Shown here: one piece after another, positions 4,739-23,998 of the stretch | Layout: each line of letters begins with the position of its first letter | How positions within the stretch are numbered: position 1 is the stretch's first letter | DNA from: an uncultured Pelagibacteraceae bacterium | Lineage (GTDB): Bacteria > Pseudomonadota > Alphaproteobacteria > Pelagibacterales > Pelagibacteraceae | Assembly: GCA_902615445.1 (NCBI GenBank) | Contig: CACMOQ010000006.1 | Location: 1-64,000 of the forward strand | Direction: 5' to 3' | Length of the DNA stretch: 64,000 nucleotides | Notes under the pieces: model-generated | Told to the model about the DNA's origin: nothing | The model's database searches: none | Seen by the model: only the letters and a program-made list of their open reading frames with translations | Made by a program: the position numbers and the translations under genes

Positions 4739-6538
4739 ATGGAAAAAAATTTATACATTGATGCATCGCATCCAAATGAAACTAGGGTTGTTCTTAAATC
4801 AGGTGATCATATTGAAGATTATGAATATGAAGGTTTAAAAAATAATTTAATAAAAAATAATATCTACCTAGGAAAAGTCAGCAGAATCGAACCCTCTCTT
4901 CAAGCTGCTTTCGTAGATTTTGGTAGAGAGAGACATGGTTTTTTATCTTTTAATGATATTCAATCTGATTACTACCAAATACCTCAAAGCGATTTAGAAA
5001 AAATTAAACTTGAGGAAGAAAAAATCAGAGAGGAATTATCAAAAAAAGTTGAAGCGATTGACAATGAAAATTTAGCTGATGGTAAATTAGAGGCAAATGA
5101 TCCTGTAGAGCCACCGGAAAAAATTGAGGAAGATAATAAAAATAATCAAAAAGAGGAGCAGGAAAAAAATTTAGAAATTAAAAATGAAAATAGACCTAAG
5201 TTTAAAAGGTATAAGATCCAAGAAGTTATTAAACCCAATCAAGTAATTCTGGTGCAAGTTATAAAAGATGAAAGGGGTCAAAAAGGTGCTGCACTTAGTA
5301 CTTTTATTTCTATAGCAGGAAAATATATAGTGCTTATGCCTAATACTCCAAAGGGTGGGGGTATATCTAGAAAAATATTTAATCCTGCAGAAAGAAAAAA
5401 AATCAGAACTATATTAAATGAAATCGAAATACCCAAAGAAATGGGTCTGATAGTAAGAACAGCTGGAAGCAATAAAACAAAAAATGATATAAACCATGAT
5501 CTTGAGACTTTGAAAAATACATGGGACCAAATTAAAAATACAGCTATAAACTCTATAGCACCATCACTTATTCATCAGGAAAGTGAAATTATTAAAAGAA
5601 CTTTAAGAGACATGTACGATGAAAATACCAAAAATATTATAGTTGAGGGCAATGAAGGCTACAAAAAAGCCCAGTCATTTATGAAAATGTTAATTCCATC
5701 ACATGTTAAAAAAGTAAAAAAATATAGAGGCAAAATACCTCTTTTCATAAATGAAAATATTGACCAAAAATTAAATCAGATCTTTGAGTCAGAGATAAAA
5801 TTAAATTCTGGAGGATATCTTGTTATTAACCCTACAGAAGCCTTAGTATCAATAGATATCAATTCTGGTAGTTCTATAAAACAAAAAAATATAGAAAGTA
5901 CAGCGCTCGATACAAATCTGGAAGCAGCTGAGGAGATAGCCAGACAAATAAAAATAAGAGATTTATCTGGATTAATCATAATTGATTTCATAGATATGCT
6001 CAATTATGGCAATAGAAAATTGGTTGAAAGAAAACTTAAAGAGAGATGTAGATTAGATAGAGCTAGAATTCAAATTGGTAGAATAAGTAATTTTGGCTTG
6101 CTAGAAATGTCAAGACAAAGATTGAGAGAAAGTGCAATTAAATGGAAAGTTTCTTTAACAGATGAGTCTTTTGCCCAAAAGATTTTAAAAATTGTTGAAA
6201 TTAAAGCGGTTCTAAATAAAGCGAAATTTGTTGAGTTAAAAGTTTGTGAAAAAATTTCAAATTTTTTAAAAGAAAACTTTATTGAAAATTTAACTTATTT
6301 TGAAAAAAAAAATAAAATTAAAATAGATATTATAATTGACAACAAACTAATCATACCTGAATATATTATCGATTTTAAGAATAAATCAAAAAAAACATTA
6401 GAATTAATAGAACACTTTGAAAAATTAAAAAATCTTGATAAACAAAAAGTAAGTGGAAATATAATTGAATTTAAAGATAAGAAAAAATTTAAAAGAAAAT
6501 CGTTTAAGAAAAAAAAATTTTTTAAAAAAGCTAAATAA
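4739..6538 (+). CDS. rne: Ribonuclease E/G family endoribonuclease, short form
   Basis: Endonuclease acting in mRNA decay and in rRNA and tRNA processing. The N-terminus has the alphaproteobacterial arrangement in which the S1 domain is split by a charged insert (about residues 85-160). The catalytic aspartates are in SIDINSGSS and IIIDFIDM, matching E. coli D303 and D346. RISNFGLLEMSRQR precedes the place where the Zn-link should be. The CPxC zinc-link motif is absent: RESAIKWKVSLTDES continues directly into the small domain. At 599 aa it ends in a short basic tail (KKKFKRKSFKKKK) with no long degradosome scaffold. The stop overlaps the convergent thiG stop region by 8 nt. A CafA/RNase G assignment is possible, but the S1 insert favours RNase E. 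Confidence 0.93.
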   Translation: MEKNLYIDASHPNETRVVLKSGDHIEDYEYEGLKNNLIKNNIYLGKVSRIEPSLQAAFVDFGRERHGFLSFNDIQSDYYQIPQSDLEKIKLEEEKIREELSKKVEAIDNENLADGKLEANDPVEPPEKIEEDNKNNQKEEQEKNLEIKNENRPKFKRYKIQEVIKPNQVILVQVIKDERGQKGAALSTFISIAGKYIVLMPNTPKGGGISRKIFNPAERKKIRTILNEIEIPKEMGLIVRTAGSNKTKNDINHDLETLKNTWDQIKNTAINSIAPSLIHQESEIIKRTLRDMYDENTKNIIVEGNEGYKKAQSFMKMLIPSHVKKVKKYRGKIPLFINENIDQKLNQIFESEIKLNSGGYLVINPTEALVSIDINSGSSIKQKNIESTALDTNLEAAEEIARQIKIRDLSGLIIIDFIDMLNYGNRKLVERKLKERCRLDRARIQIGRISNFGLLEMSRQRLRESAIKWKVSLTDESFAQKILKIVEIKAVLNKAKFVELKVCEKISNFLKENFIENLTYFEKKNKIKIDIIIDNKLIIPEYIIDFKNKSKKTLELIEHFEKLKNLDKQKVSGNIIEFKDKKKFKRKSFKKKKFFKKAK

Positions 6539-13189: not shown

Positions 13190-13852
13190 TTAATCCTCAA
13201 GTGCCTGTTTTATAATCTTAAAATCAATAGACTTTTTTTTTTTTAAACTTAATTCGTCAATTTTATATATGAAATCCGATATATTACTATAGGATCTATC
13301 TATTCTTTTTATTATGTAGTCAATTAATTTTTTATCAATAGATATTTGTCTATCAGATAAATTTTTTAGTAGTAAAGCAAAAATTAAATCATCATCAGGA
13401 TTTTCAATATTTGCAAGAGTAAAATTTTTTGATCTTGATTTCAAATCAGAAAGTATAAAATCTAACTTAACAATGGACACATCAGATGTTACTATTAAAT
13501 TTTTATCCTCAACCTCAACAATATTAATTAAACTATAAAACAATTTTTCATTTATATTTAATGTTAAATCTTCTAAAATAATATTTTTATAAAACTTTAT
13601 TTTTTTTAAAAAATCGTCATTTAATTTATTTGAATCAATCTTAAGACCTTTATTTTTTTCTAAAAAAATATTTATAAGATGAGATTTACCACAAAATTTT
13701 TCGCCGATGATATTAAGAAATTTTTCATTTTTTTTTGACCAATTATTTATTAAATTAAAGACGTTCATATTGCTTTTCGAAACGTAAAAATCTAAGTTTT
13801 TAAAATTTTGATCATAATCAAAATTTAAAATTAATTGATTGAGATTGTTCAT
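13190..13852 (-). CDS. hdaA: Hda/DnaA-like AAA+ regulator of replication initiation
   Basis: About 220 aa. It starts with NLNQLILNFDYDQNFKNLDFYVS, typical of Hda/DnaA domain III, and has a Walker A motif (GEKFCGKSHLIN). It ends after the AAA+ lid with no DNA-binding domain IV, as in Hda and HdaA. Hda-type proteins act with the sliding clamp to promote ATP hydrolysis by DnaA. The track starts at 13864. I prefer the ATG at 13852-13850 because it forms an ATGA overlap with the upstream DUF2066 stop (TGA at 13851-13849). The divergence is high, so the clamp-binding motif is only suggested by the N-terminal QLILNF. Confidence 0.83.
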   Translation of the reverse strand: MNNLNQLILNFDYDQNFKNLDFYVSKSNMNVFNLINNWSKKNEKFLNIIGEKFCGKSHLINIFLEKNKGLKIDSNKLNDDFLKKIKFYKNIILEDLTLNINEKLFYSLINIVEVEDKNLIVTSDVSIVKLDFILSDLKSRSKNFTLANIENPDDDLIFALLLKNLSDRQISIDKKLIDYIIKRIDRSYSNISDFIYKIDELSLKKKKSIDFKIIKQALED

Positions 13853-14916
13853 TTTAAAATCCAAATCTTATTTTTAATATCTAAATCATATCCTAACATT
13901 TGCATTTCATTAATAAATGCTTGAGGGTTTCCGTTAAAGATTATTTTATAATAGATTTTAATATTATCTAACTTTGTCACATTAAAAGAGGATATCAAAT
14001 CGAATTTATCTATTGTTTTTTCAAAATCTTCAATTTTTTTGTCTTTAGAAATATCAATAGCAATTGTCAAAGGTAGTTTAATTGAGGTATTAATTTGATT
14101 TTCTCTTTTCCAATAATCCTCATAAAGCAATTTTAATTCCTCGATAGTTTTTTGTACATCTTTTTCATTAAAGTTTTTAAAAACTTTATTATCCAAGACC
14201 ATTTTATCGGATAATTTTATCTTAGATAAAACTTTTAAATCATTATCATTTTTATATATCAAAGAAATTATATAATCATCTAAAAAATATTTATTTATTA
14301 TTTCTTTAAAGTCATAATCCTCTAAATATTCATAATTTGATTTTATTATTTGAATATCATCTAAATCATCTGTTGGTAACACATAAATTAATTGATTTTG
14401 ATTATTATTTAAACCAAACCAATTTTGATAAAATATATTTTCAGAAAATAAAATGATATTCTTTTTATCCTCTTCAATTATAACTGGAATAAATAAAACT
14501 TTTTTTTTTTTGGGTTGAGAAGGAAAAATATTTTTTTTTTATAAAAAAGAAAAAATTTTTTTTTTATTAAATGAAACATCTAAATTAACATAATAGATAT
14601 TATCAATAAATTTTTCCTCTTTAATTGAGAAATTATCTATCATAGTTTTAATATCAATAAGAGATAAGTCTTTTAACTTAAATTGATCCTTTGATTTTGT
14701 AATATTAAAAATTAATTGTCGATAAGCAATTTTAAAGCCTTCGTTTAATACATCTGTTTTCTGGAAATCCATATTAAATTTCTTTGAAATTTCAATATTT
14801 TTTATATCAAAGCTTTTGGCGTGAGAAAAAGTTGTGGAAAAAAAAATTTTTAATAAAGCTAATATTAATATAATCAGATATAACGTTGATTTAATTGATA
14901 AGACTTTATTTTTCAT
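13849..14916 (-). pseudogene. DUF2066 family secreted protein, interrupted by one in-frame TAA
   Basis: The track gives two ORFs, 14539..14916 (125 aa) and 13849..14382 (177 aa, opened at a GTG). Both are in the same frame. I translated the bridge 14538-14383 and it is fully open (KKNIFPSQPKKKKVLFIPVI... NQNQLIYVLPTDD). This is therefore one 354-aa-equivalent gene cut by a single TAA at 14541-14539. The N-terminus has a signal-like hydrophobic segment (LYLIILILALLKIFFS). The protein family usually sits beside hda and purM in alphaproteobacteria, as here. After the stop, 229 codons remain open, so the lesion is recent, is bypassed, or is a sequence error. Three A-runs (A10, A10, A12) surround the stop. 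The family function is unknown. Confidence 0.8.
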
Positions 14917-23056: not shown

Positions 23057-23998
23057 ATGAAAATAATTTTTGCATATACTTTGATAATATATCTTCATTT
23101 AATTACAGCTAGTATTTCAACTGAAATTAAAATTTTATATAAAATTAACGACAGTGTGATTACCAATTATGATATTTCAGAGGAGGTTAATTATTTGGTT
23201 TCACTCAATAGAAATTTAAATCAATTAAATGATAAGCAACTTTTCTCAAATGCTGAAAAATCTTTAATTAGAGAAATAATAAAGAAAGATGAAATAGATA
23301 AATTTTATGAAATTAATTATGAGGAAGAAATTAATTCTGAAAATATTAATAGAATAGTTACAAATTTTAGAGAAAAAATAGGTTATAAATCAAATCAAGA
23401 ATTTCAAGATTTTTTGAAAGTTAAAAATATTGAAATTAATGAACTCAAGAAAAAGTTTATAATTGAACAATTTTGGAACCAACTTATTTTTGATAAGTAT
23501 AGAAATTTGGTAAAAATAGACTCAGATAAAATTCAAAGTGTTTTAGAAAAATTAATAAAAGACAAATCAGAAATTTTAACATTTAATTTATCTGAAATAG
23601 TTTTTTTTGAAAAAAATAGAGAAGCAATAAAAAACAAATCAGAAGAAATCATAGCATCAATTGAAAGTATTGGTTTTAAAGATACGGCAGTAATCTATAG
23701 TATATCAGAAAGTTCAAAATTAGGTGGAGAAATAGGCTGGGTAAACCAAAACCAAATATCAAAAAAAATTTTTCAAGATATTAAAGACTTAGATATAGGA
23801 GATTTTTCGAAGCCAATAATTACTACAGGGGGTATAATTTTTCTTAAAGTAAATGACAAAAAAAAGACTAGTACCCAGATTGATAAGGACAAAGAAATGA
23901 AAAGGCTGATTGCGTTTGAAAAAAATAGAATACTAAATGAATATTCGATAATTTATTATAAAGAAATTGAAAATAAAGCATATGTTGAAAAATTTTAA
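23057..23998 (+). CDS. surA: SurA-like periplasmic peptidyl-prolyl isomerase/chaperone
   Basis: 313 aa. N-terminal signal segment (IIFAYTLIIYLHLITAS), then a SurA-N-like helical region starting KILYKINDSVITNYDI, and one parvulin-type rotamase domain toward the C-terminus (SESSKLGGEIGWVNQNQISKKIF, with FSKPIITTGGIIFLKVND). SurA escorts outer membrane proteins, LptD in particular, so the position 3 bp after lptD is meaningful. Only one parvulin domain is visible, fewer than in E. coli SurA. It overlaps pdxA by 17 nt. Confidence 0.85.
   Translation: MKIIFAYTLIIYLHLITASISTEIKILYKINDSVITNYDISEEVNYLVSLNRNLNQLNDKQLFSNAEKSLIREIIKKDEIDKFYEINYEEEINSENINRIVTNFREKIGYKSNQEFQDFLKVKNIEINELKKKFIIEQFWNQLIFDKYRNLVKIDSDKIQSVLEKLIKDKSEILTFNLSEIVFFEKNREAIKNKSEEIIASIESIGFKDTAVIYSISESSKLGGEIGWVNQNQISKKIFQDIKDLDIGDFSKPIITTGGIIFLKVNDKKKTSTQIDKDKEMKRLIAFEKNRILNEYSIIYYKEIENKAYVEKF

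Follow-up and report, generated by a model that had tools for sequence, protein, structure and literature searches.

Broken bacterial genes can be rescued by transcriptional slippage on long A tracts, as in Buchnera, Blochmannia, Shigella spa13 and Citrobacter tssM, and A10-A11 tracts have been cited as slippage sites in other genes (PMC6260861). Apparent breaks can also be technical, and a benchmark of a marine single-cell assembly workflow gave 5.0 mismatches and 3.0 indels per 100 kb (PMC6122165; PMC11247762). On DUF2066 proteins themselves the literature searched gave two passing mentions only. The gene described here lies in the window, that is, the whole stretch of 64,000 nucleotides that was analysed from an uncultured Pelagibacteraceae bacterium, and it resembles the slippage systems in being AT-rich and in having A10 tracts that adjoin its break. 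A preliminary description had proposed that paired slippage on these tracts could bypass a TAA codon, with recent loss and homopolymer sequence error as the other options. According to our analysis, the minus strand from 14916 to 13852 is a single DUF2066 frame of 355 codons whose sole break is the TAA at 14541-14539. The ORF at 14916-14539 (125 aa) is in frame with the stretch 14538-13852, and a TGA follows position 13852. The window sequence confirmed what had been described about the layout of the gene: the two ORFs are one frame with an open bridge, the A10, A10 and A12 runs are where they had been placed, the TAA is formed at the second A-run (it takes its first two A) and 229 open codons lie downstream of it up to the TGA. 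The features are as follows.

14542..14916, minus strand: 5' part of the DUF2066 gene, an ORF of 125 codons with the signal region and the start of the domain; intact orthologues read through and match the family profile
14539..14541, minus strand: TAA replacing the conserved Glu126 codon by a G-to-T substitution; GAA in G050, G110 and G055, and GAA or GAG in 88 of 93 loci
13852..14538, minus strand: 3' part of the DUF2066 gene, an open stretch of 229 constrained codons
14556..14565, minus strand: first A10 tract, Lys codons, of equal length in both intact sisters
14531..14540, minus strand: second A10 tract; both intact sisters and several more intact relatives have it at equal length
14500..14511, minus strand: third run, A12, Lys codons, whose length differs among relatives with the frame unbroken

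The nearest DUF2066 genes of Pelagibacter, those of G050 (AG-915-J15), G110 and G055 (AG-899-M07), show 82% protein identity with the window (82-83% amino-acid identity for the best relatives, whose frame is open for 356 codons). Their frame and length are as in the window, and G050 and G110 also have both A10 tracts, but they carry GAA at the site where the window has TAA. The two nearest sisters read TTT TTA GAA AAA AAA AAT and the window reads TTT TTA TAA AAA AAA AAT, a difference of one G-to-T substitution and zero indels at the stop. In a codon alignment of 93 loci, in which some genomes are represented twice, this codon was GAA in 55 and GAG in 33, while GAT, AAA, CAA and TAT were found once each and TAA in the window only. 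The downstream part was present in 121 of the 151 genomes searched (genus Pelagibacter), with an internal stop in none of them, and the gene was present in 52 of the 57 genomes that are at least 90% complete. The searches of the genus revealed no closer relative with the same stop, so the window gene carries, as a pseudogene would, an inactivating lesion that is absent from its relatives. Two other orthologues showed frame breaks of their own: a one-base deletion in an A run at ~3341 of L092 (CABYSP010000024.1), and a frameshift beside a T10 run in the G292 gene (L131, G292:C14:12500-15800, minus strand, ~2076-2060), near the start and in the signal region.

We have also found that relaxed constraint after the lesion, as expected in a pseudogene, is absent, and that there is no other stop or frameshift, although a very recent lesion would look alike. 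Between the window and its sister G050, dN/dS was 0.085/0.590 before the stop (~0.14) and 0.098/0.555 after it (~0.18), and the intact pair G050 and G055 gave 0.163/0.922 for the downstream part. Past the stop, third codon positions hold most of the differences (23, 15 and 64 for the first, second and third), and 40 random substitutions downstream would leave no new stop with a probability of 0.03. These substitution patterns indicate that constraint on the 229 codons past the stop is as strong as on those before it, and the decay of the downstream half, which the preliminary description had named as a sign against its proposal, was not seen. As constraint is about the same on both sides, the stop is either very recent or absent from the cell.

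The assignment to DUF2066 (PF09839) comes through the orthologues, since 13 of 18 intact relatives match the profile at E<=1 (best 1.8e-5), the closest relative being borderline at 22.8 bits where the cut-off is 23 bits, and each half of the window gene alone gives no match to it. By this borderline profile score the gene can be called DUF2066-like. In a model of the intact G050 orthologue (mean pLDDT 85.9) the lost codon lies near the end of the helix 118-127, and truncation at the stop would cost the predicted chain about two thirds of its length. A fold search with the same model revealed one match with E<0.001, which was FlgT (3w1e, E 3.4e-6, TM-score 0.24); as this is a single match with such a TM-score, no function is assigned to the protein. 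Weaker structural matches followed, such as LpoB and TolB, and together with FlgT they could hint at a role of DUF2066 proteins in the periplasm.

To see how isolated the break is, the 96-kb contig to which the window belongs was scanned against gene stretches of three relatives (58, 49 and 28 genes). Besides the DUF2066 gene no broken real gene was found among the genes compared, which rules out that the contig as a whole is decayed or badly assembled, and two other flagged genes were explained by ORFs of the relatives that extend upstream of the likely start. The reverse comparison yielded one frameshift, at G110:C8 ~23190-23196 (L103), in the orthologue of window positions 4739-6538 (plus strand), where G110 has A6 against A7 in the window. 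This gene looks like a ribonuclease E/G, and the frameshift in G110 is probably an indel error or a recent break. As far as the sequences compared indicate, breaks are isolated and scattered among genomes.

On balance, we favour a one-base error of single-cell amplification, sequencing or assembly as the origin of the stop over a recent private null mutation. A private G-to-T substitution made TAA out of GAA, while the DUF2066 gene is normal otherwise and the A tracts are uninvolved; an error at this base would be likelier than a real mutation, and the cell probably has an intact gene. This reading is suggested by the Glu codon in 88 of the 93 loci, the tracts of the intact sisters, the constraint, the sole break, the near-universal presence of the gene and the benchmark rate. 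The named records of relatives, G050 and G055 included, are mostly single-cell assemblies, and from this kinship we infer that the window's own genome is one as well. Random substitutions in the window genes create a stop in 5.7% of cases, and in 14% when they are G-to-T or C-to-A. At the published error rate the expected number of false stops is 0.17 per window and 2.9 per genome, and one false stop is unremarkable in a window picked for having a stop. In general, oxidation of guanine typically results in G-to-T changes.

Against the error reading, a real recent mutation would look identical. It is quite possible, even if we lean against it, that a very recent nonsense mutation deprived this cell or its close lineage of the DUF2066 protein and that the rest of the gene has not yet decayed, as the clean single substitution without further damage would fit. 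However, the gene occurs almost throughout the genus, no other nonsense change was found in its conserved part among the matches listed, and in a large population one would expect a private null allele to be rare. Recent loss, one of the options listed at the outset, is thus kept beside substitution error. The homopolymer error proposed with it does not hold in that exact form, as comparing the A-run region with related genomes revealed a substitution and no length change in either A10 run. Since both A10 lengths equal those of the sisters and the frame is unbroken, an A-run indel is ruled out as the cause of the stop.

Bypass of a real stop by two compensating slips of RNA polymerase on the A tracts of a single transcript is improbable. 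The arithmetic of the proposal was right: when all slips from -2 to +2 in both A10 runs were enumerated, +1/-1, -1/+1 and several other combinations restored the frame without a stop. The frames so reached are open, the codons downstream of the stop are constrained and tracts of this length are known slippage sites elsewhere. However, homopolymer slips repair the break only formally, as a single transcript needs two opposite events, and on the poly(A) runs with which E. coli RNA polymerase was tested, slippage by deletion was not observed (PMC6260861). Both A10 tracts have identical lengths in the two intact sisters, and the second is also found in L004, L006, L008, L012 and L020. Because stop-free sisters carry them, the tracts existed before the stop, and no bypass function is needed to explain them; neither origin nor shared conservation ties them to a break that arose by substitution, and slippage as the means of bypass was therefore not borne out. 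At the stop the tracts encode Lys (KKK, KK and KKKK), and with a GC content of 28% the window has 20 A/T runs of at least 10 and 127 of at least 8, so such tracts are not rare here and, being common in this genome, are not evidence of slippage. The A tracts are the sole support of the slippage proposal, and intact relatives share them. Even less probable is a real stop that became fixed in a small SAR11 lineage in which compensating slips on the ancestral A tracts would give enough full-length protein; if true, pre-existing A tracts would buffer a nonsense mutation.

A split into two functional proteins, the second starting inside the gene, is very unlikely and was rejected: the downstream half is intact, but its first usable start is a GTG at 14382, 52 codons past the stop, and a second protein begun there would be missing both the signal region and the invariant positions that precede it. 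A real stop that a suppressor tRNA reads through, or that is recoded to an amino acid, has practically no chance, for its only point is that the frame continues, whereas TAA terminates 49 of the 63 window genes and none of the 26 tRNA genes found in the genome has an anticodon reading UAA, which speaks against a suppressor tRNA.

Finally, the finding looks ordinary, either a lone sequence error or a mutation of very recent date, and it has little importance in itself. When a lone premature stop appears in an assembly from an uncultured cell, the published error rate and the sister genomes should be checked before recoding is proposed. In the slippage systems a single slip repairs an indel, whereas the break in the window is a substitution that would require two opposite slips on older tracts. 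Like the single-base errors of single-cell assemblies (PMC6122165; PMC11247762), the stop in the window is isolated, private and of one base, and the expected number fits, so that it is probably such an error.
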